23,177 nt of DNA from a virus: IMG/VR virus record IMGVR_UViG_3300025131_000454, positions 1 to 23,177 of that record, one strand, 5' to 3'. A program made the translations under genes and the position numbers. Positions 1,344 to 23,177 of this stretch are shown one piece after another. The notes below the pieces were generated by a model. It was not told the DNA's origin, made no database searches, and was given only the letters and a program-made list of their open reading frames with translations. Positions within the stretch are counted from its first letter, which is position 1. Each line of letters begins with the position of its first letter.

Positions 1344-2318
1344 ATGGGAATAATTAAATTAATAGACGATAGCTTACTACCAGAAAGCATACGAGATATG
1401 GTGGCGTCACTCGACCCTGCCGAACAGGGACGTTTTTGGGGCGTCGGATTTACTGGCAGGAAGACATATGATTGTCCTAAATTTGATGTTACGCCAGATG
1501 AAAAACTAATTTCTAACGGCAACTCATCAGTTGTATTAGGATATGATAGGCCACATTCGAGAGGAAGCGGCTTTGGCGGTAAGGGGGCTACACAGTGCTC
1601 CTCTATGGACCTAGTGGTGGGGCGTTTAGGATATCAAGCTAAATCAGAAGACTCTCTTGGAAGAGAAAAGCTCGTTAATCCTAATTTTAAAAAGGACGCC
1701 GCGCGCATTTACTTGAGCCAGAAGGCGGCTGTAGATGATGTTAAATATTTTGGACTCCCCGCGGGCACCGTTGGAAACGTAGGAACGGACCGCCCGGGGT
1801 CTACGATTGCTTTGAAGGCAGATACACTTCGGTTTGTCGCGAGAGAGAATATCAAGCTTGTCACCAGAACTGACAAGAAAAACTCGCAAGGGGGCGAGTG
1901 CGGCACCTCATTTCAGGGACAATATGGTATTGATTTGATTGCTATGAATGATGATAGTGATATGCAACCAATGGTGAAAGGTAACAACTTAGTTGCCTGT
2001 CTTAAAGAAATGTCAAAACAGATAAATAAACTAAGGGACAGTCTTCTCACGGTCTTGGACTACCAGCGCAACCTGACACAGGGTCTTATTACTCATACTC
2101 ACTTCTCTCCCTTTTTTGGAAGTCCCACATCCCCGGACTTTACTACCCTTATGCCAAAGGGCATCGAAGTCTTGGTAAACACAGCTTTGAACGTAGAGAT
2201 ACCAATGATGATTGAAGACACCATGGATTCCACCGGTTTTGTCACGAAATATTTATCGAGCCCCGGCGGAATGAGGTCCTCCCGTTACATTTTAAGCAAG
2301 TATAACAACACAAATTAA
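1344..2318 (+). CDS. Putative baseplate spike / hub-associated structural protein
   Basis: A 324-aa protein, probably structural, whose family I cannot name with certainty. The middle (about 70-200) is rich in Gly, Ser and short beta-prone segments, including IALKADTLRFVAREN, of the kind seen in phage spike and puncturing proteins. Residues about 210-250 look like an amphipathic helix (VKGNNLVACLKEMSKQINKL), followed at 251-253 by His-Thr-His in THTHFSPFFG. HxH motifs occur in the iron-binding tips of P2 gpV-type spikes, so a spike role is possible. Here, however, about 70 residues follow the motif, so it would not lie at the extreme tip of the chain. The gene follows the peptidase gene by 20 bases and precedes the 2045-aa gene by 2 bases, which implies co-transcription. 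The start is supported by GGGAG at 1333-1337. A general baseplate component of unknown role is the alternative. Confidence 0.72.
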   Translation: MGIIKLIDDSLLPESIRDMVASLDPAEQGRFWGVGFTGRKTYDCPKFDVTPDEKLISNGNSSVVLGYDRPHSRGSGFGGKGATQCSSMDLVVGRLGYQAKSEDSLGREKLVNPNFKKDAARIYLSQKAAVDDVKYFGLPAGTVGNVGTDRPGSTIALKADTLRFVARENIKLVTRTDKKNSQGGECGTSFQGQYGIDLIAMNDDSDMQPMVKGNNLVACLKEMSKQINKLRDSLLTVLDYQRNLTQGLITHTHFSPFFGSPTSPDFTTLMPKGIEVLVNTALNVEIPMMIEDTMDSTGFVTKYLSSPGGMRSSRYILSKYNNTN

Positions 2319-2320
2319 CC

Positions 2321-8300: not shown

Positions 8301-8458
8301 CCCTCTCGGGACTCTTTATGTTGCCTCCTACTCCGTTAGGAATAATTTATATCTTGATCATGCTCCTCATGGAAATGGAAGATGACACCGCAGGCGAAGA
8401 GGGAACCGATGGAAGCCAGGCGAATGTGGCCGACGGACAAACATCTAATGTCTGTTAA
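2321..8458 (+). CDS. Very large (2045 aa) baseplate-region structural protein of unknown function
   Basis: I do not recognise this protein; its place between the spike-like gene and gp25 argues for a virion protein of the tail or baseplate. Residues about 33-83 are a Ser/Lys/Pro-rich, probably disordered linker, and residues about 1723-1757 are a Pro-rich linker (QPPPEPPAPS), so it has at least three large sections. Hydrophobic helical stretches lie near 590-650, 655-695 (preceded by a Pro/Ile-rich PVPILVIPEIPKIEIP), 1305-1337 (LLIQVYFVELLLKNIF) and 1993-2022 (PLGIIYILIMLLMEME). No signal peptide is seen. Cysteines are scattered, without a clear metal motif. An 18-base tandem duplication gives DMKAVN-DMKAVR at about 516-527. 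The ATG follows the previous stop by 2 bases with no clear Shine-Dalgarno, so translation is probably coupled. The length is tape-measure-like, but tape measures normally sit upstream of hub genes and are mainly coiled-coil, which this is not. Confidence 0.85.
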   Translation: MSLDFDSLNVFLKYPSYVPWFDQSTGKYYVIVQPAVRSSGATSSSGPRSSAKSSKKSGVGSSMSPGRATETEPESPNPPSDQVLKKQAVDAFIEYYLPEFYPFLYANSKKRPAAPAKFTSTYNQLRKEIENNLGYVKTDTDDDSPMNALVPLPKYLFASGVGALNFKNIRLGLQMHGVDSDRLLQDARIQRGKGDCPDAKAGDTLPTYDSGFPRWSDALNFFNEQQRIPGDELNAADVAIINLGGVVDTIFKLEAILDSYDQNIQRFGSPLRIPIELAAIRDSVKRFLGNVTNMVRRDINLTGLPVLPFSKEDILYIEFDKKQQIKAAYYDVDLGKETVSSPLKVGYLSMVKHDLILLDRWVMATIINHGKIINRYPKKKANRGGGLPSFMKFIETTYGKLLKDPDANPSINEAAINFLAPAPPGIDPVQFSIIFTAKDGNSPIDILNPANLGNSLSTFLTSKEVGEINAALNNPVHLAALYNDMKSKMVPNTFPLKDTIDKIILLINTAKGQQSDMKAVNDMKAVRDSYVANREEVEGMPGDNTSLLASIDADIDAVEAQIEQAQPSDVGAAKEQVQTVQEIVDTVLSLFGITDLIAEALICLTMGTTFSLARINEAIELGFGIAQFIEDYENPQIPVPILVIPEIPKIEIPSFNIMGDPPLWQQILDIVLQTLVDVAFEIIQGLAEMIMLNCNNLLNRPEQMGVVNAADAMRDNLNQPIHLPDMQDLLDEAFNKFGLNQDKGFDYLQNVSVGLSPFELCQLYNSRKDVSDTTIQKISHFNKGYPDENIQKMRSRGQILAFFGSMSSLCDITPVCNEWINEPNLRDTLENYCLKDGNLADLADNETIEKLAGYLNEGIPVEIPPIDFLCPDSDHFIPNPVVSRVIPQTFNTLIENAKLQFIYSVEATRTTLLEPRVHTDANPGLEKALAVLGEQDKLPGYKNPPKIDTAFLDILSEVFDQLQNPDFEIDPEACADLDLDKFGVPLPEFLKVANQLLQDSLGAANNLMDQARQQITEIQDEARGSNGTPYVTYVFPKDFNNNFKAMARQKAPKYVDIMGSKHGDYWKTTTTSPGGQRAFRSEMVKDYSTSEFGKLYMTWNFFPNTGPPNTDAIGIIYTSNDDINAPKRPRLPVRLRVPEGLLPGVKAKWVSIAPEDTSFTPLYGDQVTAGKSSASPMDGMLAEMGTESGFNPYIANFSYALSQQLLSLGNLAPWDRKYLQDKLQKQVYPVAFNGLVKRSFDYISKHGIFSMVALNKLNLFKDNTDCSPSQIGDLLDVDGILDQVKKEFKESSCNDGKNAKETATDALKFALVNLLIQVYFVELLLKNIFVFSAFNFEEIINKPVIKNLILKSLTTEIEEKLGGDVRGLKKWIYKYFETKLVRQVIVDAGGIAHSYSPTEVVPYLEAGDSVESIPFSKLLGFLIEERLGYTYESCGKMVTTMTSINNVLSLAGADKSMDQIFLDDILGMYKSPYGKKRAPTKTGEGRIFFSKYAYWEGISNWSALASSEVRVPWDPKELAKAQTVYDGAFAAALISPEAVQQLQMWTGQGIVSVSEREELLMEYVLDIVGPRPLQEVPRWTLNLQQILGTAGAGSIPLRTATAVDFMDLIDLTAGARPVFEGLKLGYKLIFNFPSYRGTSYAANDWDQSDSPFINSFRPGPVRQLMKQAIDFQGRAIGKDSITDAIQGDMDPANEGSQIIGELLTVDIRAVGDFNPNELESVIASEASQPPPEPPAPSNGPGIPSMGEAPPYDPNRETVMSTEALYSRVKRFNSRSDTAHRGTILRDTEYRRFINQTFNPETIFLIPVLYNLGLTNYFFSDVERNFETTKQVILDLFGMVSSTHRAPALIENNTALDLANNLGSDGESTFEMNAREFILKVLRETPIKILKGVVELVDPHVALSKIIRDITGQVFMTITNIMDAGITIAASAMPDNPMKEMMEKMKGDDILALAFCGLNTLNHMASNKLPDPPGPLEAPLLGPRMTLNGVDFTGTLSGLFMLPPTPLGIIYILIMLLMEMEDDTAGEEGTDGSQANVADGQTSNVC
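3866..3901 (+). repeat. 18-bp tandem duplication inside the 2045-aa gene
   Basis: Two adjacent 18-base units (3866-3883 and 3884-3901), both beginning GACATGAAAGC and differing by a few bases, encode DMKAVN and DMKAVR. The repeat keeps the reading frame, lies in a helical, charged stretch, and looks like a recent in-frame slippage duplication. Confidence 0.75.
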
Positions 8459-8495: not shown

Positions 8496-8879
8496 ATGAC
8501 AACCGGATTAGCACCAAGACTTCCACTAAGATCTAGTAGGTTTGAACTCATTACAGATTATAGAAGCTTAGTGCAACAAAATTTAAAAAATCTTATCCTC
8601 ACAAACCCAGGAGAGCGATGTATGGATACGCGCTTTGGGGTGGGCCTGAGGCGGTATTTATTTGAGATAAATGATGATATTACCTATCAGGAGATAGCTG
8701 TAAAAATAAGAGCCCAAGTAGCTGAGTATATGCCTTTTGTGGAGATACAGGCTGTTGAGTTTAAGTCGCCTCAGGATAATCCTGATCTGTTTCCAAATTT
8801 TATTCGTACTACGATAACATTTAAAATTGTTCCACTACAGACAACAGGTATCGTGCAGCTTGATACAAATATAGACTAA
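8496..8879 (+). CDS. 25: Baseplate wedge subunit, gp25/W family (sheath initiator)
   Basis: A 127-aa protein of the T4 gp25 / P2 gpW / T6SS TssE family (GPW_gp25). In contractile tails this small protein joins the wedge to the first ring of the sheath. The diagnostic block is present: NLKNLILTNPGER at about 29-41, then TRFGVGLRRYLFE at 45-57, where family members carry a TxPGER...FG.G...LFE pattern. The C-terminal half (about 60-125) has the usual helix followed by beta strands ending TTITFKIVP. Length is close to T4 gp25. It is followed after 18 bases by the gp6/J-like gene, the conserved W-J order. A strong AGGAGG supports the start. Residues 1-12 are a short extension before the core. No key residue appears to be missing. 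Confidence 0.95.
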   Translation: MTTGLAPRLPLRSSRFELITDYRSLVQQNLKNLILTNPGERCMDTRFGVGLRRYLFEINDDITYQEIAVKIRAQVAEYMPFVEIQAVEFKSPQDNPDLFPNFIRTTITFKIVPLQTTGIVQLDTNID

Positions 8880-8897: not shown

Positions 8898-10688
8898 ATG
8901 TCCAAGAAAATTCAAGCGATCGACTATACAAGTAGAGACTTCTCATCGATTCGTCGTGACCTAGAAAATTTTACCAAAAGATATTACCCCAACACATATA
9001 AAGACTTTAACCAAGCCAGTTTCGGCTCTTTAATGCTTGACACGGTTGCGTATGTGGGAGACATACTTTCTTTTTACTTAGATTATCAGGCTAACGAATC
9101 CTTTCTTAATACAGCCATTGAGTATAACAATGTTGTGCGACTCTCCCGCCAGTTGGGGTTCCGCCTTAATCCAAACCCCTCATCGTACGGAGTACTAACC
9201 TTTTACGTAAAGGTACCAGCAGCCTCCCTAACTCAGGGCCCCGACACCGATTATATTCCTGTGCTCAAAGCCGGCTCAGAGCTTTCATCTGATACGGGCG
9301 GATTTTATACATTAATTGATGACGTGGACTTTAAAAAAGAACAGAACCAGATCGTTGTGAGTGATGTAACAACAACCGGCGCGCCCACTCATTTTGTCAT
9401 TCGGGCACAAGGCCGCGCGGTCTCCGGCCGGATCGGCCGCGACCGATTTAGGTTGGGATCATTTAAGAGATTTCGTAAGATTGCCCTAGGGGTTGGAAGA
9501 GTTAACAACGTGGTTAGTGTCTACGATACCGAGGGGCACCGGTATTATGAGGTGGATAACTTGTCGCAGGACGTGGTCTATAAAGCAATCCGGAACACCA
9601 CGGCAACCCGAGCCACCGTCCCCAACATTTTGAAGCCAATGCCCGTCGCGCGCCGGTTCACAACAGAGTTTGCTAACGGCAAGACCTTCTTACAGTTTGG
9701 ATATGGCTCAGACTCAGAATTGAGCACCGATGCCGTTGCAGATCCCACCAATCTAATGCTTGACATGCAGGGGCGTGATTATATTAGTGATACCGGCTTC
9801 GATCCTACCAAGTTGTTGAATACTGATAAATTTGGTATTGCCCCGGCTAATACTGAGCTGGTGGTTTCATATCGATTCAATACCGTCGATGACGTTAACG
9901 CCCCCGTTAATGCCATCAATGTTATTTCAAGGCCGAAACTCGAGTTCCAAGTGGATTCAGCCCTTATTCCCCAGAAGCGTTCAGGGGTGGTTAATTCTGT
10001 TCAGGTTATAAATGAAGAGCAATTTGTGGGCAGTATTGCATTGCCGGATTCTGACGAGATTAAACAGAGAGCCTTTAGCTATTTTGCTACACAACACAGG
10101 GCCGTAACAGCGCAAGATTATAAGGCCATGTGTTATGGCATGCCATCTAATTTTGGGGCCGTGAAAAGGGTTTCAGTGTCCCGCGACTTTGACGCCTTTA
10201 AGCGCAACCTAAATCTTTATGTGATTTCAGAAAACGCTAGCGGTAAACTAACGATACCCAACATGACTTTAAAAAATAATCTTAAAAACTGGATTTCTCA
10301 GTATAAAATGATAAATGATACGATTGACGTTCTCAATGCGAAGATTGTTAATTTTGGTATAGAATATGAAGTTACAGTAGACATGTCGGCTAGTAAGTAT
10401 AATGTGATAAATACTGCAAATTTTGCGTTGACAAAGAAATTTCGCCAAGGGTTTGACATTGGAGAGCCAATTCAACTTTCTGAAGTATATAAAATTCTTA
10501 ATAAAGTAGAGGGTATTATAGACGTCCTTGATGTAAAGATTGTTGAAAAAAGCGGCGGCACCTATACTGGTGACTCTTATGATTTTAAAGCCAATACAAG
10601 CGCTGACAATAGGAGAATTTTAGCGGAAGAAAACGTTATTTTTGAATTGAAGTTCCCGGGCAACGATATTAAGGGGAGCGTTAAATAA
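8898..10688 (+). CDS. 6: Baseplate wedge protein, gp6/J family
   Basis: A 596-aa protein of the T4 gp6 / P2 gpJ / Mu gp47 family, which dimerises to form the inner ring of wedges around the hub. The N-terminus IDYTSRDFSSIRRDL (8-22) and the block FNQASFGSLMLDTVAYVGD at 37-55 followed by LSFYLDYQANESFLNTA (57-73) and LSRQLGFRL (82-90) are typical of phage gp6. A central TQHRAVTAQDY (398-408) is the usual baseplate-J element. Length is slightly under T4 gp6. The last third (about 455-590) is strikingly more AT-rich in codons than the middle. It directly follows gp25 and its stop overlaps the next ATG by one base (TAATG), indicating coupled translation. It probably binds the gp25-like protein and the gpI/gp7-like section of the giant protein encoded at 12228. 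Confidence 0.95.
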   Translation: MSKKIQAIDYTSRDFSSIRRDLENFTKRYYPNTYKDFNQASFGSLMLDTVAYVGDILSFYLDYQANESFLNTAIEYNNVVRLSRQLGFRLNPNPSSYGVLTFYVKVPAASLTQGPDTDYIPVLKAGSELSSDTGGFYTLIDDVDFKKEQNQIVVSDVTTTGAPTHFVIRAQGRAVSGRIGRDRFRLGSFKRFRKIALGVGRVNNVVSVYDTEGHRYYEVDNLSQDVVYKAIRNTTATRATVPNILKPMPVARRFTTEFANGKTFLQFGYGSDSELSTDAVADPTNLMLDMQGRDYISDTGFDPTKLLNTDKFGIAPANTELVVSYRFNTVDDVNAPVNAINVISRPKLEFQVDSALIPQKRSGVVNSVQVINEEQFVGSIALPDSDEIKQRAFSYFATQHRAVTAQDYKAMCYGMPSNFGAVKRVSVSRDFDAFKRNLNLYVISENASGKLTIPNMTLKNNLKNWISQYKMINDTIDVLNAKIVNFGIEYEVTVDMSASKYNVINTANFALTKKFRQGFDIGEPIQLSEVYKILNKVEGIIDVLDVKIVEKSGGTYTGDSYDFKANTSADNRRILAEENVIFELKFPGNDIKGSVK

Positions 10689-12220
10689 TGGCATTCAAGA
10701 GGTATACGGCGAGCGCAGACACAACTATTACCAACGCGTTTAAATCTAACCTTGTTACCCGGGGTACTGGGTCAAACATGGGATATGCCGACTCTGTAGA
10801 AGTGTTTTCTTTATATGGCGAGAAGTCCGGGTCGTCAGAGGGACAATCACAAGAGCTTTCGCGTGCCCTGATCATGTTTCCCGCGACTTCCATATCGGCC
10901 GACCGCAGCGCCGGAAACATTCCAGCCAGCGGAAGTGTGAATTTTTATCTTAAGCTTTCAAATGCGCGCCATCCCTGGACACTTCCACAAGATTTTACTT
11001 TAGTTGTGGCTCCTGTTTCTACATCATGGGAAGAAGGCACCGGCCTCGACATGTCGGAATACTCAGATATTGGAATGGCCAGCTGGTTCTCGGCTTCGAC
11101 AAATACTCCTTGGGTTCATCGCGGCGCCGACTATCGCACCGGATCTTCAGATCCCGTGTATAAACAAACTTTCTCATTAGGGTATGAAGATTTAGATATT
11201 GATATAACCCATGTTGTAGAGAGGTGGATGCAAACATCTGGAACGTCGCTGCACTTTGATAATTATGGGCTGGGAATATTCCTAACATCTAGTCAGGAAG
11301 CGTACGCAGCTGCCGCAACAACTAATGGGGTTTTGGAAAACACCGGTGGCGCTGCCCAATCTTATTATACAAAGAAGTTTTTTGCTCGATCGAGCGAGTT
11401 CTTCTTCCGCCGTCCGCGGATCGAAGCACGCTGGGACTCGCGAGTATCCGACGACAGGGGAAATTTCTTCTACAGTAGTTCAATAGCTTCCGCTGAAGAC
11501 AACATGAATACACTTTATTTATATAACTATGTCCGCGGCCGCCTGCGCAATTTACCTGGGGTTGGCCTTGAAACACTTTACGTTTCTTTGTTTTCCGGTA
11601 ACGCCGGAAATACGTCCCCCACGGGATCAGCCATGGTTTTATATAATGGAAATACGGTCGCGACAGGCGGGTATGTAAGTACAGGAATCTACTCGGCCTC
11701 GTTTGCGATGACTTCTTCATCTGGTGGGGCGCCCTTCAAACTATTTGATGTATGGTGTTCTGCTCCGACAGGATCTACACAGTTTAAAACAGGATCGGTG
11801 ATCACACAGACCTTTGAGCAATTTGGTGGCGCGCCGACGTTCGAAAGAGTGACCTCGGTTAAGAGTTTACAATCGTCCTATCTTCAGAATCAGACTGTAA
11901 GATTTAGAACTTTTGTGAGGGATAGAAACTGGAGTCCTACCATTTATACGGTGGCTACGCGGGTCAACCCCACCGAAATAATTGAAAGCGCATCCTATAA
12001 AATTATTAGGGTGGTGGATGAACTGGAAGTGATTCCATATGGGACGGGTAGTGAGTTGTCGACTTACCTTTCGTTTGATGTGAGTGGTAATTATTTTGAC
12101 CTCAATCTGAGAGAGCTTGAGGCCGGATATATGTATGGGATAAAATTATCTTACTACAATGACAGTATTTCTAGCTGGATAGAACAACCGGAAACGTTTA
12201 AATTTAGGGTTGAACAATAA
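10688..12220 (+). CDS. Peripheral baseplate / tail protein with N-terminal DNRLRE (CBM96-like) domain
   Basis: A 510-aa protein, probably an outer baseplate or receptor-facing component. Residues 1-185 follow the DNRLRE/CBM96 pattern: an Asp-Thr-Thr-Ile opening (11-14), a strand with ALIMF, a Trp-Glu-Glu-Gly turn (W114-G117) with YSD and a further Trp downstream, and a closing DIDITHVVERW (170-180). That family binds polysaccharide or forms a beta-sandwich in secreted proteins; sugar binding here is inferred. The rest is beta-rich with many Gly/Ser/Thr/Tyr, and the C-terminus (about 390-510) looks like fibronectin-type or wedge-like strands. T4 gp8 lies in a comparable genome neighbourhood, but I see no sequence basis for calling this gp8. 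The start overlaps the gp6-like stop by one base (TAATG). The stop is 7 bases before the giant gene, so the three genes are likely translated together. Confidence 0.85.
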   Translation: MAFKRYTASADTTITNAFKSNLVTRGTGSNMGYADSVEVFSLYGEKSGSSEGQSQELSRALIMFPATSISADRSAGNIPASGSVNFYLKLSNARHPWTLPQDFTLVVAPVSTSWEEGTGLDMSEYSDIGMASWFSASTNTPWVHRGADYRTGSSDPVYKQTFSLGYEDLDIDITHVVERWMQTSGTSLHFDNYGLGIFLTSSQEAYAAAATTNGVLENTGGAAQSYYTKKFFARSSEFFFRRPRIEARWDSRVSDDRGNFFYSSSIASAEDNMNTLYLYNYVRGRLRNLPGVGLETLYVSLFSGNAGNTSPTGSAMVLYNGNTVATGGYVSTGIYSASFAMTSSSGGAPFKLFDVWCSAPTGSTQFKTGSVITQTFEQFGGAPTFERVTSVKSLQSSYLQNQTVRFRTFVRDRNWSPTIYTVATRVNPTEIIESASYKIIRVVDELEVIPYGTGSELSTYLSFDVSGNYFDLNLRELEAGYMYGIKLSYYNDSISSWIEQPETFKFRVEQ

Positions 12221-12227
12221 TTAGGAT

Positions 12228-15200
12228 ATGAGCTTTAAACATTTATTTGACAAAGCAGGAACTCTTAAGACATTATCTAACAAATCTGCCGATCAAATTG
12301 GATCTACGATTGAGTCGGCTGAGTTCCAAAAGCAAGACATCATTAAGGAGCGCCGCTTCATCCCGGCTGCCGATTATGGTGATCCGAAGAGCTTTGCCAA
12401 ATTTGGCTCCGCGGAACGATACTATAAGGACTCGGTCGACCGCGTAATTAAAACATATCCCTATGATGGATCGCTCAAGGAGCGCCTAGAGTGGGAAAAC
12501 GAATCAACCGAAATTGATTTATACATTTATGGCGATCTATATCCTCGCCGAACTGGTTATATTACGACGGCCGTTAGTGGGTGGGGTACCCAAGACACAG
12601 ACTATGCTGGTTATGGATTATCCGACACTTTAGAGTACATTTACCTTAAGGGCGGCCCCCATCCTCACCCGGACGGCATGTCCCCTCTCTATCTACAGTT
12701 TACGGGCTCCAACTATTATGATCCGAACAGTGATCGAGAATCCAACTTAAAATATGACATCTCAGGGTCTGGGGTTACCGTTGAGTTTTGGATGAAAAAG
12801 GACGAGTTTCTTCTTGATGACACGAGGAAAGAGGTTCTATTTGATCTCTGGAATAATGTTAGCTCTTCAATTGGCCACTATGGACGTCTTCGCATTGAAC
12901 TCTCGGGTGGCAGCGAAGATGGCCTAGCGAAAGATCCTTTTAGGGTTACTCTTTTGTCTGGAACGACCGGCGCAACGACTGCATCGGTGTGTGCCTCCAA
13001 CTTTACTACTGCTTCGATTGCTGATGGAAACTGGCACCATTATGGGTTTAGCTTTAAGTCGGCATCTGCCGGTATTATGAGTCGGTTCTATGTTGACGGC
13101 CTCTTAAACAACGAGTCCACTATTGGAAATGCAGGATTCGCTGAAGTTACGGGCGCCCTTACTGCTTATATCGGAGCCATTCAGGCAGTTCCTGAGTCCG
13201 GGTCCACATATAATGCCCCCGCGGGCGCAGGCAAACTCAGCGCATCCCTTGATGAATTCCGCTACTGGAAGACCCAGAGATCCTCCCAAGATATTGGGCG
13301 CTTCTGGTTTACTCAGGTGGGAGGCGGTGTCAACGTCGATCCGATGCCCTTTACTGACACTCTAGAGCGCGCCAATATTGATTTGGGTGTTTATTACAAG
13401 TTCAACGAAGGCATCACCGGCGTAGAAGCAACAGATAGCACACTTTTAGACTATTCTGGGCGCCTAACGAACGGAGCTTGGACTGGATATGTTACTGGAT
13501 CACGTAACACGGGCTCGGCAATCATATCCTCTAGTGCTGCTATTAGAGAGTTTGAAGATCCTATCATTTATCCTTTCCATCCTGACGTATCCACGTTGCG
13601 CAGCAATTTGATATTATCGGGAGCCGCGCACGACAACGACAATGCGGCCATGATTTACGGGTCATTCCCCAGCTGGATGACAGAAGAAGACGTTGAAGAG
13701 GGCGCGACACTTCAAAAGGTTGTTCAGGTCATGTCTAGCTACCTCGATACGCTCCACCTCCAGATAGGCTCCTTGAATAAGTTAAAGGATGTCCAATATA
13801 CGACAGGCTCCAATAAGGCGAGTGTCTATGCAGACCAGGCGTTAGCGTCTCAAGGTTTAATCGTTCCTGAGTTGTTTGCCAATGCAACCGTTCTTGAGGC
13901 CTTGGGCGACCGAAGCGAAACAGAAGTTTATTCCAAAGACCTTACTGAAGTAAAAGATTTAATCTATCAAAATATCTACAATAACTTAACTTACATCTAT
14001 AAATCTAAGGGTACTGAAAAAGCTTTCCGCAACCTTATCCGATGTTTTGGGGTCGACGATAATCTGATAAAGATTAACATGTATGCCAACAACGTAGAAT
14101 TTGATTTCATTACTAATCGTAAAAATCAGGTGTCAACCAAAAAGTATGTCAACTTTAACACTACCACCAATGCAAATGCAACTGTTTATCAGTGTCGCGA
14201 CCCGGGTGACACCACCAATACTTATGGATTCATCTCTTCGAGCACTAATTTAACTGGCGGCTACTCCTTTACCATGCAGGCAGAGGTTATCTTTCCAGAA
14301 AAGTTTAGCAGAAGCGATGATTGGTATACCGATACTAATGTGATCTCTTCCTCGTTGTTTGGAATTCAGTCTACCACAGCGCAGCCGACGGATACCGCAG
14401 GCTCCGAAGAAGCTCAGAGCGACCCGACGATTCCTGCGGACAATGCGACTAACTTCCAAGTCTATGCAGTCCGCGATTATCCGGGGTATGGCTATATTGA
14501 TTCACCAAACGTCCAGTTTGTTCTTACTGGCTCGGCTGGTGGCTATATGCCTCGCTTGACCAGTTCTCTATTCTTAAATGTTTATGATGAGACTAAGTGG
14601 AATTTAGCAGTTAAGATAAGCCCTCAACGATATCCATGGATTGGTCAGGTCCCCGACTCTAGTGATAGTATTTATTTAATTGAGTTTGAGGGGATTAGTG
14701 TAGATGCTGGCACTATTGTAAATCGCTTTTTGGTAACAGGAACAGTGGACACCAGCGTGGGAGGTGGCCCCAACCGCGCGGCCTTTGTTACAGGCTCCCG
14801 CCGCGCATTTATTGGCGCAACAAAGACTAACGTAACAGGAACAACCGTCAACAGGGGCGATACTAAGATTAGTTCATGCCGTGTATGGCTTGACCGACTT
14901 ACAACAGAAAACATTGAAGCGCATGCCTATGATCCTGAAAATTATGGACGGACCGACGCGGCCATGGATGCCTTCCCCTTTTACGCATCAGCCAGCCAAG
15001 CACCAGTCCAGGAAGTCGCCGCGGTTGACACGTTATTATTAAATTGGAATTTTAATCAAAATACGGGCTCCGATTCATATGGACAATTTAGGGTCGCAGA
15101 CCTTTCATCAGGGTCGGCGACTTTGGCAGCTACAAGAAATGGGTGGCTAGGCAATATCCTTCACTATCAGCTGCCTGGTTCTGGTTCAAACTTTTTGGAT

Positions 15201-18200
15201 AGTTCCTCTAAGGTAACAGATAAAGATTATATCGTTTCTTCCAAGCAGAATCTGCCGGAGAGTATAGAATCGGCAGATATGATTACTGTACTATCACAAC
15301 AAGATGAGGTTGAATTTACCAGAGACTCAAGGCCGACTAACTATTTCTTAGCATTTGAAAAGAGCATGAGTCAGGGTGTGTCTGAACAAATGCTTAAGTA
15401 TTTTGCCTCCTTGAACGACTTGAACACTTTAATTGGCGCGCCAGTTAACTATTACCGGCCTGAATATAAGGGGCTGAAGTTTATAAGACAGAAGTTTTTT
15501 GAAACCGTATCCAATGATGAAATTGATTTTGAAAAGTTCTACGAGTACTATAAATGGATAGATAGTGCTCTAAGCGTTATGCTGGGTCAGATAGCGCCGG
15601 TGTCTTTAGACTTCGACCCCCAAGTCCGGACACTAATAGAAAGTCACATGCTCGAAAGGAGCAAATACCAGAATAAATTCCCGTTCTTAGCAAAATCAGA
15701 ACCGGACCTTTCTGGAACGATCGGAACTGTTGCGTCCCCTATCGCTGTAAACTCAGTCATTAATGATGCACAGGGCACCGGAATTGAGTCGGCCCAGGCC
15801 CCAACTAAACGTGCCACAGGTATCCCAGCAATTTCGAATTTGGGGAGCTGGAAATATGATCATGCGCCACCGCCCACTGCTTCGTGGGTCGACGGTGCTC
15901 GTCCGCAGCCAAATTCTGGCTCCCGGGCTTGGTGGCAAAACCGCGCCGAACGAGGAGGTCCTGCTGGACTGCAAACGGCCGATGCAACGGGAACTCTTCC
16001 GGCCCCCGCGCTAGCCGATCGCCAGGTTCTTCTGAATGCTATTAGGTCTTCTAATGATCGCACCCTCAATCGCCCCTATCGTTTCACAGGCGGTGGGTCA
16101 GTGGTCCTAGGTGGCGTAGCCCAACACCCCAGCAAGCGCAAAGACTTTGTTTATGACGCGACAGCCCCCGCCGGACCACCTATTGGAACATCGTCTGTCC
16201 CGCGCAACGTCATGTCTGCCGTGTCTGGCCAGGTAGAAAAACTTGTCAATACAACTGATGTTTATTTCCCCTCTCAGAAAGATCGTTTAGGGTTTACTTT
16301 AAACCCCTCCATTAATCAGGGCAACACTTCGTCTGTTCAGTTTGCTAGCGATTATGAAATAATTGGCGACGGCGCCACGTTTGCTCCGTTTAGTTTATAC
16401 GGTGTCTCTGGAAGTGATGCCATCGCAGATGAAATGTCCAACTTCACCGCGAGCACGATGATTACCAACTTACATTCGGATTTGGTTTCCAATCAAACGG
16501 ACGTCCCAATGCAGGGTCCGTTTACAGAGAAGTTTGTAGGGGGGCGCCAGCATCGACATATTAATTTTAATAGCGCGCGCCCCGTGAGTGATTTTGAGTA
16601 TGTGAATGATAAGCAGTTACGAATATATCCACAACAACAAACAGGTGGTGCATATTCATACAGAGACGCTCCAATTTTATCCACCGGATATTTGGATGAG
16701 TGGGTACATCTGGTAACCAGTTCTTGGTCTCTATCCACCTGGGCCTCATTTGGAAATTTCTGGTCCGGAACGAACTTCAAACAAATGGTGTGCATGGGTA
16801 ACTCTTCTGAGGGTGTCAACCGTGTGGCTGTTGATATGACTGGCAATATAAATATATATACTGGGTTCACCACCACAAGTGGACATTGGAAGACTTCAAA
16901 CAACCCACTATCTGGTGCTGGTTGGCCAACAGCTAGTTTAGATAATGCCGCGACTGCCTCGGCACACATTGTAGTTACATATGATGTTGACACCTCTACT
17001 CATCCAAAAATATATGTTAATGGGGTGTCAGCTTCCACCCTTCAATTGGTTGCTCCGGCAGGTACATCATATCCTCCGCAGGACGGCGGCGGAGGTAGGC
17101 TTGTTGTATTTGCTTGGCAGTCAGATGCGTCCAGCGACAACCTATCGAACTGGTCCGATTCGATGGGTACCGGATCCATCAGTGAATTGGCTTTGTGGTC
17201 TGGCAGTCTCTCAATTGATGAAGTTCGTGAACTTTATAATACCCAAACAGAATACCCAGGAATTCCCAAGCTTGTAAAAAATACCAATGGTGTGTGGAAG
17301 ACATTCTCTACCGGCGCCTTTAATCTTGAATATCACACCGCGTACGCAACAAAGCTTAATTCATGGTGGCGAATGGGTAACGGGACCTCTTCAGTACCAT
17401 CGGTGACTAGCGGGGAGGCGGGCCCCGATAGTGTTGCATCCTCCTCGGCGCGCATCTGGGATCAGAAGGGCACTCTCCATTTAACTGGTGGAGGCTCATG
17501 GTATGGTAGTATCCCCGTTACTTACGCCTATAGTGCCAACAACGGTTTTTTGGACACGTACGGAACAACTTGGCGAGTCCCGGGCCTCTCCGATAATCTT
17601 CAGCCCATCACCCCCCAACAACTGAGCCTCTATGGTGGCGGATTCATCGAAGGCCTCAAGCCCGGCGCAAACGCCCTAGACGGCCCAGAGACGCGCCCTG
17701 AAGGCTGGAAGGTTGTCCTGGGTCGAACGTGGACCGGAACGGAGCTGACGGGCGGCTACGCGTCCGCATCGGGACGCCTGGAGGTGGTGGGCCCGCAGTA
17801 CCCAGACGGGGATACTGTGCCTTCAACGGTGCCCCTAGGAAATGTTTTCAAGCGACCGAAGGCCAACCTCTCACGTCAGGCTTATGCGAAGCGCCCAGTT
17901 AACATCAAGAACATTTTGATGACGACGGCGTCCTTAAGTCAATCCTATTCTGGTGCCCTTGTTCACAGCAATATCGGAAACTATTCCAAGAACTATGAAG
18001 TGGTCCAGACGTCAGGCAGAACTCAAAATGATCCCTTCTTCCAAGACCAGTCTTTTGATTTCTCTCTGAATCCTGCGATGCCTGTTGTGCGCCGAGAAGG
18101 CAGATATCCTCTTGCTTATCTTCTGGATGGCCCGACAACGCGTTTTGCCAGCAAAATGATGAGATGGGAAGAAGACGCAATTTATTGGTCGGGCGGCCCC

Positions 18201-21200
18201 GCGGCCGTCATTGACCCAGATTACGAGAATTTTGGTGTAACTGGTGACGATCGATTTACCGCCGGCGCCGCCAAATGTTGGGCCCAAGAAAACTTTACCT
18301 TTAGTCTTTGGTTGTCGAGATCTATGGCTAGCTTGGGCCAACTCACCAACCAGATGCTCGTCCAGCTCGGGGATAATACGAACGTTGAAACCCCATACGC
18401 GAACTCCCCCAGCACGCGAGATGGTATCAGGCGCTTCTGGATTACGAACAATGATACCTCGGGAAGCGCCGAAAACGGTAAGTTTAATTTCACAATGCAG
18501 ACCGGCTATTCCACCTCCGGCGAGGGACCGGTCACCGCCACAACTTGGCAATCAGATGCATCGGTGCTTCATAATACGGGGTGGTTTCACATCTGTCTTT
18601 CTTTCGCGTCCGGGGGTCTGAATGATGGTACGGACGATAAGATTCCTGTTGTCAAGCTTTATGTTAATAATATAGAGAGAGATATATCCTCAGGATCCAA
18701 TTGGAATGTAGCTGGCCCCATGCTAGCCATTAATGGTCATTCGCGAATGGGACAGGCCAATTCAATAACGTTGCGCGGCAGCAGTATGCTAGATTTCTCT
18801 TATTGGAATGCAGCCCTTTCCGCAACTCAAGTATCTGGGGTCTTTGGACGCAACGGCACCGCCAACACTAACTATGGGGGAGGCACATACTTATCTGGGT
18901 CACAGGACTTGAGCACGCTCGTGCTCTCGGGAAGTTCGACGAACTATTGTACCTCTTCCTTAGTAGCTTGGTTGAGAATGGGATCCTATGCCTACATGGA
19001 TCGCAATTCTTGGGGCGAATATTTTACCCCCGACACCGGCTTCAGTCGCGACGGCGAGGGGTCGACCGGGTCACTTCCCCACCTCGCCGACGTCGCGATT
19101 ACTGATGGCGTTCATTTTGTAGACCCCGCCACCAACGCCGGCTCGTGGCGAGGAGGAGCCTACGACGACGAGCGCGGTGGCTACTCTGCTTCCTATACCG
19201 ACCATGAGGCCGACCTCACTATCGCCGAGATCAGTGCGTCAGCCTATTCAATTGTGGGAGGCGGTTACCAAGCGCAAGGCACCTGGGCAGGCACCGATAT
19301 GGAGCCGTTCCCATCCCAGATTTCCGGAGCAGCAGAGTTTGCAGTTCCAGCCCGTACAGGATCCGACTCCAATCAAACAGTGATAGTTAATCGATTCAGC
19401 GCCCCGGGCGGCTATGTTGTGCGAAGCCGGGGTTATATGGATCCCGCGCATGAAGAGCTATCAGCCTACAACGCACTACCGTTCCGCAATTTTGGAGTTA
19501 TGGGCTCCGGTGGATTACCTCCCAATTCAATTCAGGTTCGGGATCAAATTGACAAGCCACGTGGCTTCCAGACAAACAACAAGCTGCATTGTGGCCCATT
19601 CGGCGCGGATGCAACTTATGGAGAGGTGACCTTAGCGGAGGTGGCCGTTGACGCAAACCTTACTGTTACAGTACCTTCCTTCCATAAGATTCAAAGGAAC
19701 CCGAAGAAGACACTGACGATCACAGGCAGTCTGATTGGGCTCTCCACAGATCAGCCCCTTACCACAGGATCCCAGTACGATAACGCATTCGTACAGCATC
19801 CTGTTCCGCGTTCAGATCGCAATTATCGTTGGATTACATCTTCTCTCCGCGAAAGGGCCCCTCTTTATGGGTATGACAAGCTGGTTCCTCCCTCTACAGG
19901 AAGCTCTTATGTATATGAGTTAGCTGAGGCTCTACAAACCGGCCCGTCGGGTTCTTCTGGATCTTACACCACAGCATCGTATCCCTTTGGGACTGGTTCT
20001 GGTATGCCGGCGTATTGGTCAAGGCCTTATACAGTAGATATTACGAGCGGCAATATCAACTTTGCGGGGATGAATTATGATGAACACTCAGCGCGCTATG
20101 CTAATTTAGAGATGCATGTTCTAGAGCCGCCGATGTTTGTGCCCAATAAGCACTCGTATCTTTTCTCGGGCAGCAGAGCCGCCACCTTCGGGGAGCGAGA
20201 TAATGCTGCTTATGTTGCGGGAGGCGGCCCTGCTTGGCAGTCGTTTGGAGATCATCAAGCCGGCCAACTTGCCGGCGGCAATGGCCGCATGAGTGTAGCT
20301 TGGTGGCAATATATTCCTTCAACTGCTAGTGCCACTAGTGATACGGACGATATGAGTCCATGGCAATTTGTGAATCGATGGCGCACCGCAAGCCGCCGTA
20401 CGGTATGGTTTGAACAGTCTGGGCAAAACTGGCGTATGTATTTTGACGTCGATGGTAGTTCCAATGGTAGGGTATGGACCTCGGCGTTGTCTATGAATAA
20501 TAAGTGGCAGCATATTATTGTAACCTTCGCGGGAACCGCTAGCGCCAACACTGATCAGTCCACACTCGAAGCCCTTCGTGTCTATATAAATGGGCACCCA
20601 ATGGCGACCAGCACAAACAGCTCTAATAGAGGTCAAAGTTACCTCGGCATCGATGGCCCATTTGTAATTGGCAACAGACTATCCGCTCCGCGACCATTTA
20701 ATGGCTATCTAGATGAGATGCAAATTTATGATAAGGAGCTAACGCCGACGGAGTGTGAAGACTTATTCCGCCGCCGCGGCATAAACTTATTCGGTTTCAC
20801 GGCCAAGCCTAATCTGGTGTCATGGTATAGGTTTGGTACCACGGCTGGAGACTCTCTTGAACTAATCAAAGATGCACAACGCGGAATTGATGCCACTATG
20901 TTTTACACCACGGGGAATGTTAATATTGCAACCACAGTTCAGGTGACCTCGTTCACCCCGGCCGTTGGTTCTCTTACTAGCAGCGGCCTTTCACCACAAT
21001 TCACAGGAAGTTTCTGGAGCCACTCCTTTATTAACCTCAATCAGACATTATTAAATCTGAATGGTCCATATCAATATCCTAGTTGGAAGCAAGTAAGAAC
21101 CGGCGAGCACCCCGTGGCCAGAGCCCTCAGGGAAAACAACCGGATTTCGGTTGCCAAGCCGCCGCCCATGGTGCCGGAGTATGTTTCGGGATCTACTAAT

Positions 21201-23177
21201 CCTTCGAATATGGTAAGAGGAAAATCTTCTAATACTTTTGTGGATTTTGTGGAACAACCGGTTGTTAGCAAAACTAAGCCTTTTTTGACGGCCTTTGAAG
21301 ACAATACCGAGGACCCTTCCCCGGGCAACAACGCGGCCGTGAAGGTGACCCTTGGAAATGAAATCAACTACTTTACAAATCCTGGCCTAAACAGTCTCCT
21401 TAATTTGCAGATCGATGACCCGTCAAACGGGGCTTATGGGGAAATTCAAGAATTTATTGATGACACTGACTTAAGTGTATACGCGGGCTATAGCGAGCGA
21501 ATTTTCCCCGCCGCGCACAACGCATATCAAAAGAGAGTCCGCGGCCGCACGGCGTACAAGATTGATAATGTCTGGAATAAATTCCGGAGATATAGAAATT
21601 ACCCAGTTACTAATTCGCAGGGATATTGGGACTCCGCTAGCGCGGGGAGCGAAAATGACAGTAGTCCTTGGCCACTCGATGCGCCTATTAAGTTCAATGA
21701 GCAGCTCAACTCAATTGGATATTCTCAAGCCTCGGGGAACGCGGTTGCTCGGAGATGGTATAACAGTGGCGCCGTTCAGGCCACTAGGATTACCGGAGCA
21801 ACCCCCGGGGGCCCGATACTTGGGTCTAACATGTTGCGCGCCGCAGGCCCCAACTATGGTAGCCTGACAATAAGCTATATGTATGCCAATACTGGTTCCG
21901 GGGCAGGAGAGCTGCAGAATACATATAACAGGTTCGGCCTCGCCCTTTACAACGGTCAGGGCGGGATGAACCTTACATCCTCGAATACCACTTCCTCTAT
22001 CCCGGCACCCCCCAGTGGCACCATTCACCCGGGGGCGTCCTATGTGATGCCGTTCCTGGCGCAGCCCCGCACTGACCTCTTGCCAGTCGGAAACCCAAGT
22101 ATTACATGGCCTCTCGCCGGGTTCCACCCATGGGTTGCCCCATTCCAGGAAGGTATAGAGCCATATCGTCCTTATGAGGAATACTCAGAACTTATTCGTG
22201 TCGCCGGCAAGGACCACGCGGTTATCCCAGAATTCCGAATCAGTGAGCTACTAGAAGAATATACAGGCGAACAGCGTGGCGACTTCTTGACCAAGATCCC
22301 CACTCTTTGGTCCTTGACTGGCTCAGACATTCCAAATTCATCCGACAAAGACTTTTATAAAATTTATACTAACTCTGATTTCTTACAGTTGTTTAAGCTT
22401 GTCGACGGCGACCTCCGCGGACAACGCAGTAACCCAGAGAGGAATATACAGAGAATGGGCACAACTCTGGAGGCATCAGCACTTCTATCCTTCCTACCCT
22501 ATAAGGGACTCTATCCGGCAGAAAGAACAGTCCAGCTTGCAGCTTACTTCTCGCAGTCAATGGGGAGTATCACCCCGGGTACCAGGTACCTTGCAAATTC
22601 AGAATATATTCAAGGAACTGGCACCAATCCAAGCCGCGGCAATGTGAATTTCCCTTGCGCAGCACCAGAACAGGTCTTGAGTAGAATCTTGCTTGAGCCC
22701 CTGTTCGCGCCTGGAATTCTGCACAATACCATTAAGTCCGGGATTGCAGTAAGTCACTTTGCATTGCGGAATACCGGATCGATACCAGAATCGTTTGCAG
22801 GAGTTGGCGGCGCATATATGGGAGCGCGTATCGAGCAGACGATGAAACATGCAAGTTTTGTGTGGTATCCCGCAACAAATGCTGCAAAAGAAGGAGCTTG
22901 TGTTACCCTCCGCGAAGGCTACTACGAGTATAATTTCAACTCCTCGGCCTCAGTTCAATCGGCGTCGATTAATTCAGCTAGCTTGCCGTGCTTGAATATT
23001 GCACACAGCGGCGGCGGCTCAGACGCAGCGGCAAGCTTGTGGCCGACAGTCTATGCCTCGACCACAAGCTCCATAACTCCCTTAAGTGTTTATTGGGGCT
23101 CGCGCCAGGGCTATTACTTGCACAAAGTTCCCTTCGAAGCTATTCGTCGTCCTCAAAATTATTTGAGCAGAAGGGCC
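12228..23177 (+). CDS. Giant (>=3650 aa, unclosed) baseplate wedge protein: gpI/gp7-like segment plus multiple LamG domains
   Basis: One frame runs without a stop from ATG 12228 to the last base, so the 3' end lies outside the window. Order by residue: N-terminal segment (1-150); LamG 1 (about 155-365: VEFWM 185-189, NWHHY 268-272, YVDG 288-291, LDEFRYW 341-347); gpI/gp7-like helical segment (about 481-621) with YKSKGTEKA at 591-599; divergent LamG 2 (about 680-908); conserved helical block (about 1010-1153) with FEKFYEYYKWID (1101-1112) and ESHMLERSKY (1138-1147); LamG 3 (about 1487-1672), LamG 4 (about 2010-2212), LamG 5 (about 2688-2850); then about 800 residues with no fold I recognise. 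Position after gp25 and gp6 fits the third wedge component; LamG domains suggest binding to host surface sugars (inference). A TAG at 12222 bounds the frame on the left, and the only Shine-Dalgarno-like AGGA (12223-12226) is 1 base from the ATG, so initiation is probably coupled to the upstream stop. Confidence 0.9.
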   Translation, partial: MSFKHLFDKAGTLKTLSNKSADQIGSTIESAEFQKQDIIKERRFIPAADYGDPKSFAKFGSAERYYKDSVDRVIKTYPYDGSLKERLEWENESTEIDLYIYGDLYPRRTGYITTAVSGWGTQDTDYAGYGLSDTLEYIYLKGGPHPHPDGMSPLYLQFTGSNYYDPNSDRESNLKYDISGSGVTVEFWMKKDEFLLDDTRKEVLFDLWNNVSSSIGHYGRLRIELSGGSEDGLAKDPFRVTLLSGTTGATTASVCASNFTTASIADGNWHHYGFSFKSASAGIMSRFYVDGLLNNESTIGNAGFAEVTGALTAYIGAIQAVPESGSTYNAPAGAGKLSASLDEFRYWKTQRSSQDIGRFWFTQVGGGVNVDPMPFTDTLERANIDLGVYYKFNEGITGVEATDSTLLDYSGRLTNGAWTGYVTGSRNTGSAIISSSAAIREFEDPIIYPFHPDVSTLRSNLILSGAAHDNDNAAMIYGSFPSWMTEEDVEEGATLQKVVQVMSSYLDTLHLQIGSLNKLKDVQYTTGSNKASVYADQALASQGLIVPELFANATVLEALGDRSETEVYSKDLTEVKDLIYQNIYNNLTYIYKSKGTEKAFRNLIRCFGVDDNLIKINMYANNVEFDFITNRKNQVSTKKYVNFNTTTNANATVYQCRDPGDTTNTYGFISSSTNLTGGYSFTMQAEVIFPEKFSRSDDWYTDTNVISSSLFGIQSTTAQPTDTAGSEEAQSDPTIPADNATNFQVYAVRDYPGYGYIDSPNVQFVLTGSAGGYMPRLTSSLFLNVYDETKWNLAVKISPQRYPWIGQVPDSSDSIYLIEFEGISVDAGTIVNRFLVTGTVDTSVGGGPNRAAFVTGSRRAFIGATKTNVTGTTVNRGDTKISSCRVWLDRLTTENIEAHAYDPENYGRTDAAMDAFPFYASASQAPVQEVAAVDTLLLNWNFNQNTGSDSYGQFRVADLSSGSATLAATRNGWLGNILHYQLPGSGSNFLDSSSKVTDKDYIVSSKQNLPESIESADMITVLSQQDEVEFTRDSRPTNYFLAFEKSMSQGVSEQMLKYFASLNDLNTLIGAPVNYYRPEYKGLKFIRQKFFETVSNDEIDFEKFYEYYKWIDSALSVMLGQIAPVSLDFDPQVRTLIESHMLERSKYQNKFPFLAKSEPDLSGTIGTVASPIAVNSVINDAQGTGIESAQAPTKRATGIPAISNLGSWKYDHAPPPTASWVDGARPQPNSGSRAWWQNRAERGGPAGLQTADATGTLPAPALADRQVLLNAIRSSNDRTLNRPYRFTGGGSVVLGGVAQHPSKRKDFVYDATAPAGPPIGTSSVPRNVMSAVSGQVEKLVNTTDVYFPSQKDRLGFTLNPSINQGNTSSVQFASDYEIIGDGATFAPFSLYGVSGSDAIADEMSNFTASTMITNLHSDLVSNQTDVPMQGPFTEKFVGGRQHRHINFNSARPVSDFEYVNDKQLRIYPQQQTGGAYSYRDAPILSTGYLDEWVHLVTSSWSLSTWASFGNFWSGTNFKQMVCMGNSSEGVNRVAVDMTGNINIYTGFTTTSGHWKTSNNPLSGAGWPTASLDNAATASAHIVVTYDVDTSTHPKIYVNGVSASTLQLVAPAGTSYPPQDGGGGRLVVFAWQSDASSDNLSNWSDSMGTGSISELALWSGSLSIDEVRELYNTQTEYPGIPKLVKNTNGVWKTFSTGAFNLEYHTAYATKLNSWWRMGNGTSSVPSVTSGEAGPDSVASSSARIWDQKGTLHLTGGGSWYGSIPVTYAYSANNGFLDTYGTTWRVPGLSDNLQPITPQQLSLYGGGFIEGLKPGANALDGPETRPEGWKVVLGRTWTGTELTGGYASASGRLEVVGPQYPDGDTVPSTVPLGNVFKRPKANLSRQAYAKRPVNIKNILMTTASLSQSYSGALVHSNIGNYSKNYEVVQTSGRTQNDPFFQDQSFDFSLNPAMPVVRREGRYPLAYLLDGPTTRFASKMMRWEEDAIYWSGGPAAVIDPDYENFGVTGDDRFTAGAAKCWAQENFTFSLWLSRSMASLGQLTNQMLVQLGDNTNVETPYANSPSTRDGIRRFWITNNDTSGSAENGKFNFTMQTGYSTSGEGPVTATTWQSDASVLHNTGWFHICLSFASGGLNDGTDDKIPVVKLYVNNIERDISSGSNWNVAGPMLAINGHSRMGQANSITLRGSSMLDFSYWNAALSATQVSGVFGRNGTANTNYGGGTYLSGSQDLSTLVLSGSSTNYCTSSLVAWLRMGSYAYMDRNSWGEYFTPDTGFSRDGEGSTGSLPHLADVAITDGVHFVDPATNAGSWRGGAYDDERGGYSASYTDHEADLTIAEISASAYSIVGGGYQAQGTWAGTDMEPFPSQISGAAEFAVPARTGSDSNQTVIVNRFSAPGGYVVRSRGYMDPAHEELSAYNALPFRNFGVMGSGGLPPNSIQVRDQIDKPRGFQTNNKLHCGPFGADATYGEVTLAEVAVDANLTVTVPSFHKIQRNPKKTLTITGSLIGLSTDQPLTTGSQYDNAFVQHPVPRSDRNYRWITSSLRERAPLYGYDKLVPPSTGSSYVYELAEALQTGPSGSSGSYTTASYPFGTGSGMPAYWSRPYTVDITSGNINFAGMNYDEHSARYANLEMHVLEPPMFVPNKHSYLFSGSRAATFGERDNAAYVAGGGPAWQSFGDHQAGQLAGGNGRMSVAWWQYIPSTASATSDTDDMSPWQFVNRWRTASRRTVWFEQSGQNWRMYFDVDGSSNGRVWTSALSMNNKWQHIIVTFAGTASANTDQSTLEALRVYINGHPMATSTNSSNRGQSYLGIDGPFVIGNRLSAPRPFNGYLDEMQIYDKELTPTECEDLFRRRGINLFGFTAKPNLVSWYRFGTTAGDSLELIKDAQRGIDATMFYTTGNVNIATTVQVTSFTPAVGSLTSSGLSPQFTGSFWSHSFINLNQTLLNLNGPYQYPSWKQVRTGEHPVARALRENNRISVAKPPPMVPEYVSGSTNPSNMVRGKSSNTFVDFVEQPVVSKTKPFLTAFEDNTEDPSPGNNAAVKVTLGNEINYFTNPGLNSLLNLQIDDPSNGAYGEIQEFIDDTDLSVYAGYSERIFPAAHNAYQKRVRGRTAYKIDNVWNKFRRYRNYPVTNSQGYWDSASAGSENDSSPWPLDAPIKFNEQLNSIGYSQASGNAVARRWYNSGAVQATRITGATPGGPILGSNMLRAAGPNYGSLTISYMYANTGSGAGELQNTYNRFGLALYNGQGGMNLTSSNTTSSIPAPPSGTIHPGASYVMPFLAQPRTDLLPVGNPSITWPLAGFHPWVAPFQEGIEPYRPYEEYSELIRVAGKDHAVIPEFRISELLEEYTGEQRGDFLTKIPTLWSLTGSDIPNSSDKDFYKIYTNSDFLQLFKLVDGDLRGQRSNPERNIQRMGTTLEASALLSFLPYKGLYPAERTVQLAAYFSQSMGSITPGTRYLANSEYIQGTGTNPSRGNVNFPCAAPEQVLSRILLEPLFAPGILHNTIKSGIAVSHFALRNTGSIPESFAGVGGAYMGARIEQTMKHASFVWYPATNAAKEGACVTLREGYYEYNFNSSASVQSASINSASLPCLNIAHSGGGSDAAASLWPTVYASTTSSITPLSVYWGSRQGYYLHKVPFEAIRRPQNYLSRRA
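12690..13322 (+). other. LamG/concanavalin-like domain 1 of the giant protein
   Basis: Residues about 155-365. The core pattern of Laminin_G_3 is visible: YLQFTGS opening strand, VEFWM (185-189), an NWHHYGF strand (268-274), a YVDG turn (288-291), a YIGA strand, and the closing LDEFRYW (341-347). It is followed by a YYKFNEG header strand at 389-395. Confidence 0.8.
13669..14090 (+). other. P2 gpI / T4 gp7-like wedge segment of the giant protein
   Basis: Residues about 481-621 are helical and lack the Gly/Ser/Thr bias of the flanking domains. The segment ends in YIYKSKGTEKAFRNLIRCFG (589-608), which resembles the KGT-containing C-terminal helix of tail protein I-type wedge proteins. Context (next to gp25 and gp6) supports the match, but the assignment rests on motif memory, not on an alignment. 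Confidence 0.55.
14265..14951 (+). other. Divergent LamG-like domain 2 of the giant protein
   Basis: Residues about 680-908. SFTMQAEVIFP (680-690), a KWNLAVKI strand (790-797) and the closing element KISSCRVWLDRLTTENIEAH (880-899) match the start, middle and end of a LamG-3 fold, with a long inserted loop. It is weaker than domains 1, 4 and 5. Confidence 0.55.
15256..15690 (+). other. Conserved helical block of the giant protein
   Basis: Residues about 1010-1153, rich in charged and aromatic residues: FEKFYEYYKWID (1101-1112), a hydrophobic stretch around MLGQIAPVS, then ESHMLERSKYQNKFP (1138-1152). It reads as a structural wedge segment, not a LamG domain. I infer it belongs with the gpI/gp7-like segment, separated from it by LamG 2. 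Confidence 0.5.
16686..17243 (+). other. LamG/concanavalin-like domain 3 of the giant protein
   Basis: Residues about 1487-1672. It shows a WVHLVTSSW strand (1492-1500), the KIYVNGVSAS hairpin (YVNG at 1596-1599) and the closing ISELALWSGSLSIDEVRELY (1651-1670), all typical of LamG-3. It is followed by a WWRMG header at 1713-1717. Confidence 0.7.
18255..18863 (+). other. LamG/concanavalin-like domain 4 of the giant protein
   Basis: Residues about 2010-2212. FTFSLWL (2023-2029), GWFHICLSF (2118-2126), LYVNN (2144-2148) and the closing MLDFSYWNAALSATQVSGVF (2187-2206) give the complete LamG-3 pattern. It is followed by the AWLRMG header at 2247-2252. Confidence 0.8.
20289..20777 (+). other. 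LamG/concanavalin-like domain 5 of the giant protein
   Basis: Residues about 2688-2850. MSVAWW (2688-2693), KWQHIIVTF (2759-2767), VYINGHP (2785-2791) and GYLDEMQIYDKELTPTECED (2826-2845) form a textbook LamG-3 series. It is followed by the SWYRFG header at 2865-2870. Confidence 0.85.

Follow-up and report, generated by a model that had tools for sequence, protein, structure and literature searches.

A giant LamG-containing protein encoded in the baseplate module of marine T4-like phages

The viral contig considered here (the window: 23,177 nucleotides, the whole of a linear IMG/VR record) ends within a reading frame that begins with an ATG and runs for 3,650 codons without a stop. A first-pass annotation, made from the sequence letters alone, read this frame as a counterpart of the baseplate wedge proteins T4 gp7 and P2 gpI combined with an array of LamG domains. 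What such a protein would do in a phage tail is the question that this locus raises. The reading that we favor, with a probability of roughly 60%, is that it would be a baseplate protein in the place of gp7/gpI that carries exchangeable LamG cassettes for glycan recognition. Relatives of the protein are already deposited as uncharacterized proteins, as matches in a structure library show, and no description of it was found in the literature on LamG domains with baseplates or marine phages.

The reading frame is truncated by the end of the record

12228..23177 (+): giant ORF, 3,650 codons, cut by the record end; predicted full length about 4,300 aa

As first described, the frame lacks a stop for 10,950 bases and ends mid-gene. 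Since the window is the whole record, which ends at position 23177, the missing stop reflects truncation. Viral contigs were scanned with window residues 1-1191, which yielded 80 relatives, and these supplied the stop that the first-pass annotation had proposed to look for: a closed fused frame of 2,783 to 4,458 aa is present in 35 of the relatives examined, a few of them near-duplicates. The closed proteins comprise 3,995 aa in L002, 3,883 in L009, 4,246 in L039, 4,458 in L062 and 3,991 in L006, the shortest having 2,783. Window residue 3650 aligns to residue 3356 of 3,995 in L002, 3593 of 4,246 in L039 and 3808 of 4,458 in L062, and residue 3649 to 3219 of 3,883 in L009. Because the stops of the closest relatives lie that far past residue 3650, about 640-665 aa are absent at the window end, and a full-length protein of about 4,300 aa is predicted by alignment.

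Chimeric contigs or read-through of frameshifts could account for both the long frame and the cassette differences described below. The family is represented by metagenomic contigs only, and L008 (L008:10001-22479) holds the same content broken over three frames, probably owing to indels in that contig. Against such an origin, the 35 closed relatives have a collinear backbone, three records (L004, L005 and L009) contain one and the same assembly of a relative sequence, and cassette changes are seen in pairs from different samples. The window itself is collinear with L002 over residues 1-1455 (69%) and 1815-3650 (49%), which argues against an assembly fusion. An artefact is thus very improbable, the collinear closed relatives rule out a fusion by assembly, and the frameshift or assembly error that the first-pass annotation had named as its refutation is argued against by the same evidence.

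One further copy of the wedge/LamG protein lies in L273 (CP070664.1, 8675-13354), a WOR-3 MAG 'chromosome'. It was considered as a prophage and rejected: the ORF enters a run of N and unrelated sequence, and a viral contig was probably joined to a bacterial MAG during scaffolding.

The giant gene lies downstream of baseplate wedge genes

8496..8879 (+): gp25-type baseplate wedge gene (Pfam GPW_gp25, E 2e-10; PHROG baseplate wedge, E 2e-16)
8898..10688 (+): gp6/gpJ-type baseplate wedge gene (PHROG, E 3.3e-18)
10688..12220 (+): 510-aa ORF separating gp6 from the giant ORF; without a family; ORF of similar size there in relatives

The giant gene is located downstream of the gp25 and gp6 wedge genes, with one 510-aa gene intervening after gp6. 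The sequence-based gp6 identification is strong, as the product of 8898..10688 also aligns over its full length by tblastn to the protein annotated as baseplate wedge in Flavobacterium phage vB_FspM_immuto_2-6A (hereafter immuto; E 6e-73). The same gene order is found in immuto, in the cultured Microcystis phage Mel-JY01, where a gp25-type gene and a gp6 homologue lie upstream, and, minus the 510-aa gene, in the cultured cyanophage Synechococcus phage S-CAM1. A T4-type gp23 capsid gene was detected in 8 of 12 large relatives, and the window family are marine T4-like myoviruses known almost only from metagenomes.

Farther upstream, the window encodes a VanY-domain protein, a 324-aa ORF and a 2,045-aa ORF, the latter two without a family. 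The first of these (window 1-1323), with the VanY carboxypeptidase domain at its C-terminus, opens the tail module and is perhaps a cell-wall-cutting hub component. The 2,045-aa ORF (2321-8458) precedes gp25 and gave no match in Pfam or PHROG; ORFs of similar size occupy the same place in relatives.

A two-part core is embedded among LamG-type domains

12552..13547 (+): LamG/pentraxin-fold domain 1, residues 109-440 (VIA-align Z ~19 to the PAPP-A LamG domain and pentraxins)
13545..14102 (+): core first half, residues 440-625, helical, ending in the SKGTEK helix (homologous to the Immutovirus gp109 family)
14007..14015 (+): KGT motif, residues 594-596, with invariant K and G; also in P2 gpI and, in the form KGI, in T4 gp7
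14100..15257 (+): LamG-like beta-sandwich between the core halves, residues 625-1010 (predicted strands; tandem LNS matches in flexible alignment)
15345..15677 (+): core second half, residues 1040-1150, helices with a P-A-S/R motif (hhalign to the second half of Immutovirus gp109)

The AlphaFold model of residues 1-1191 (pLDDT 70.7, pTM 0.51) shows a helical N-terminal part, a LamG/pentraxin domain at 109-440, helices at 450-606, a sandwich at about 631-1007 and helices at 1047-1122. LamG domain 1 is found in every relative examined, with HMM matches in all N-terminal parts. The sandwich in the core found matches only when aligned flexibly and in tandem, at high rmsd, and is weak by HMM.

Immuto gp109 (YP_010114574.1, 1,265 aa, 'hypothetical protein') lies in the same module and carries a homologous two-part core. 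With the Immutovirus gp109 family, residues 451-621 align at E 3.3e-15; for residues 1065-1149, hhalign to the second half of that family gave E 2.7e-12, a score that none of 200 column shuffles equalled, and both halves joined reach a profile E of 1.5e-25. The A6 profile, from whose building Mel-JY01 was left out, finds that phage's WWT39511.1 (1,336 aa, 'hypothetical protein') at E 6.6e-32. On the strength of these alignments, residues 440-625 and 1040-1150 together form a single conserved core in two halves, homologous to that of immuto gp109 and Mel-JY01. The segments 481-621 and 1010-1153, singled out at first reading as wedge-like, both fall in conserved blocks, so that the description of a wedge-type segment among beta-sandwiches holds in the form of a two-part core among LamG-type domains. 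Mel-JY01 has the same, homologous LamG-like insert, and unlike the window it is much shorter and shows no extra LamG cassettes. In immuto the insert is absent, the core is nearly contiguous, no LamG domain was found and the protein is a third of the length.

Similarity to T4 gp7 and P2 gpI is marginal

The proposed counterparts, T4 gp7, P2 gpI, Mu gp48 and Vibrio phage XM1 gp17 (for XM1, PMC10457771), adjoin gp6-type genes. A KG[T/I] helix (T4, P2) followed by a PA-type motif is common to the counterparts and the window, which differs from them in that they comprise 176-1,032 aa and are without LamG. At the motif level only, the order is K594 G595 T596 and then a family consensus VPAS at about 1124 in the window, HCHKGT and AKPAS in P2, and STKGIEAS and NLPSS in T4. 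With two profiles, T4 gp7 aligned on the KGI helix at p 0.0067-0.0091, scores equalled by 1 of 150 and 0 of 60 shuffles, and with a broader third profile at p 0.037 (3 of 150), column shuffles being a lenient control that preserves neither local order nor helical pattern. With Tail_P2_I, 2 of 31 members gave a match, at E 0.03, which is below cut-off.

No similarity was found between the P2 or Mu wedge protein alone and the window-family profiles, and the Immutovirus core alone gave no signal against T4 gp7. The relatives of P2 gpI found in viral contigs were so nearly identical that they could not serve as a profile. PF23786, searched in T4, P2, Mu and their relatives, matched nowhere but in S-CAM1 and is therefore uninformative here. 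The AlphaFold model of the isolated core is weak (pLDDT 67, pTM 0.31), and Foldseek and VIA searches with it gave no match, which does not exclude a shared fold. Overall, the profile and fold comparisons proposed by the first-pass annotation agreed on Laminin_G_3 and the KG[T/I] helix and returned no significant match among solved wedge proteins. Its assignment to T4 gp7/P2 gpI is thus weakly supported, by the gp25/gp6 position and the helix, with a profile match that is only marginal.

S-CAM1 encodes a virion structural protein of 3,032 aa, SXBG_00012 (L369:15808-24906), between gp6 and gp8 and hence at the gp7 position. A KGT helix lies close to its residue 194, a YHYH domain occupies 703-863, and a Baseplate_wedge-like match, below cut-off, covers 2029-2076; in contrast to the window protein, SXBG_00012 has a YHYH domain and no LamG was found. 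The A6 profile scored 7 bits against it, with a whole-sequence E of 1.5e-4 in a one-sequence search and no match in the genome search; beyond the KGT motif, the overall sequence similarity is not significant. In pelagimyophages and cyanomyophages, T4 gp7 is reported to be absent, with VrlC instead, and concanavalin A and YHYH domains occur among their structural proteins (PMC7029224).

The intervening 510-aa gene means that the position of the giant ORF is not exactly that of gpI. As the giant ORF is one gene removed from gp6 and resembles T4 gp7/P2 gpI only marginally, the wedge role might belong to another gene, for example the 510-aa ORF, and the giant protein might instead be akin to a large tail fibre, its KGT helix having arisen by convergence. 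This is quite unlikely, however, in view of a core that keeps both motifs in the gpI order (KGT, then PA) and is carried in the same module by immuto and Mel-JY01, and of the KGT motif in the S-CAM1 protein directly between gp6 and gp8. By sequence, the giant protein appears gp7/gpI-like in position and motif, a marginal case and not a proven member. We regard it as very probably a structural protein at the wedge position, its wedge role being deduced from position and motif, and as likely a true gp7/gpI homologue.

LamG cassettes occupy fixed sites and are exchanged between near-identical backbones

15720..16577 (+): conserved backbone segment, residues 1165-1450 (alignment with relatives)
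16716..17243 (+): LamG cassette site B, residues 1497-1672; filled only in the window genome among those examined
17670..18107 (+): conserved backbone segment, residues 1815-1960 (alignment with relatives)
18261..18851 (+): LamG cassette site C, residues 2012-2208; the commonest cassette site
19320..19907 (+): conserved backbone segment, residues 2365-2560 (alignment with relatives)
20220..20777 (+): LamG cassette site E, residues 2665-2850; strongest stretch by Pfam, located where the gene is divided in two clades

Pfam Laminin_G_3 (PF13385) matches the giant ORF at E 2.2e-26 (93.2 bits, curated cut-off 27.6), with four LamG stretches at residues 158-360, 1497-1672, 2012-2208 and 2665-2850. 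Site coordinates were referred to L010, which carries only the first LamG domain: A lies at about 1122-1196, B at 1372, C at 1505-1527, D at about 1653-1667 (placed less precisely, at 1578-1665, in L051 and L053) and E at 1701-1781. Nearly every extra LamG domain maps to sites A-E, and number and identity vary between relatives; the window cassettes occupy B, C and E. At many sites the backbone residues on either side are adjacent, as after a clean insertion, and gaps flank A and E. In L042 (L042:10001-20743), a LamG cassette is inserted within the first LamG domain.

For 40 of 50 cassettes, the best match in another genome was at the same site, versus 12 in label shuffles, an excess that reflects mainly inheritance at fixed sites, with a contribution from related genomes. 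In two pairs, chosen after inspection of the data, cassettes were gained, lost and swapped between near-identical backbones. L015 and L033 are 100% identical in the core (residues 361-1150), 33% in cassette C and 41% in E, and only one has D; at the DNA level, an 11.9-kb stretch of 96.8% identity gives way to no similarity across cassette C. L003 and L062 are 98% identical in the core and in E1, compared with 47% in A, 53% in D and 36% in E2; C is present in only one, and DNA similarity again breaks at the cassettes. The chain of LamG-like domains in the first-pass annotation is thereby borne out, and the exchange pattern of the array suits a putative role in receptor binding.

LamG folds may also be purely structural, with no part in binding. 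The giant protein might accordingly be a structural protein of the baseplate periphery whose LamG domains do no more than strengthen or decorate the virion, as Ig-like domains do on capsids and tails, and the cassette differences might be neutral mosaic drift. LamG domain 1 and the core insert are universal and evolve slowly, as structural domains do, and some relatives have separate fibre-type genes. Yet cassettes of 33-53% identity lie beside a core of 98-100% identity, and occupancy differs between near-identical genes, which points to exchange and not drift, making decoration alone unlikely.

Judged from sequence, the cassettes probably bind receptors. The giant ORF of this marine T4-like myovirus would then be the baseplate protein in place of T4 gp7/P2 gpI, with its two-part helical core (440-625 and 1040-1150) anchoring it to the gp6/gp25 wedge, and the LamG-like domain inserted in the core, together with the further LamG domains, would project outward. 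Cassettes at fixed sites may be exchanged between phages by recombination through their conserved flanks, presumably homologous, and recognition of surface glycans would thereby change while baseplate assembly remained undisturbed. More tentatively, the baseplate scaffold could be a host-range locus: at least five fixed sites would accept interchangeable LamG cassettes through recombination, without a specialized enzyme of the kind used by a diversity-generating retroelement, and each virion would thereby bear a combinatorial set of putative glycan-binding domains on the very part of the tail that sets off sheath contraction.

If the cassettes bind receptors, swappable host-recognition domains would sit on a core baseplate protein rather than on fibres only, and natural pairs differing mainly in cassettes would be ready-made host-range comparisons. 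If the reading is true, the giant proteins that marine phages encode at the gp7 position would share one architecture: a small conserved wedge core, large inserts between its halves and long extensions after it. In phage XM1, flexible parts of the gp7 counterpart take part in tail spike binding (PMC10457771). In lactococcal siphophages, carbohydrate-binding modules are reported to be added to virion proteins as reusable bricks, and two of them bound the host (PMC6669499). The evolved Dit and other decorated tail proteins described there work alike, with binding seen there and predicted here; they differ in belonging to siphophage tails, necks and Dit proteins and to a Gram-positive host, and are not homologous (PMC6669499). 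Given the S-CAM1 giant, the kind of protein is not wholly new; new here are the LamG cassettes, their fixed sites and their exchange between close relatives.

The C-terminal part is a separate gene in two clades

21036..23177 (+): first portion of the conserved C-terminal part, from residue 2937; no known family; encoded separately in two clades

The C-terminal part gave no match of meaningful E in PHROGs and none in PDB sequences, phage records or T4 gp7. In clades L051/L058/L068 and L044/L069 the protein is encoded by two adjacent genes, the cut lying between window residues of about 2545 and 2937. The single polypeptide that had been assumed at first is therefore not obligatory, and the two halves evidently can work as separate chains. 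A quick, unrooted tree implies three fusion/split changes when L008 is counted as split and two without it, and parsimony favors a fused ancestor. L008 was ruled out as a gene split, its content running on over three frames.

Relatives carry separate fibre-type genes

The suggestion that the array stands in place of separate fibre genes is not supported, since relatives carry Peptidase_S74/tail-fibre genes elsewhere. The near relative G003 (193,778 bases) encodes a 535-aa tail-fibre protein with a Peptidase_S74 domain, and fibre-type genes with this domain occur in 4 of 12 relatives, where absence from the others may reflect incompleteness. No Pfam match to Peptidase_S74 was obtained in the 3,650 residues of the window protein, whose missing last 640-665 aa are where such a domain would be expected; in relatives with closed frames, Peptidase_S74 was found in other genes. 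Such fibre-type genes in relatives indicate that the giant protein is no simple substitute for fibres.

In G003, the tail module is immediately preceded by an extended series of genes (L363:14035-19983 and L364:1-13608). Judged by their first residues alone, its products resemble sugar-nucleotide epimerases and those of other glycan-synthesis genes.
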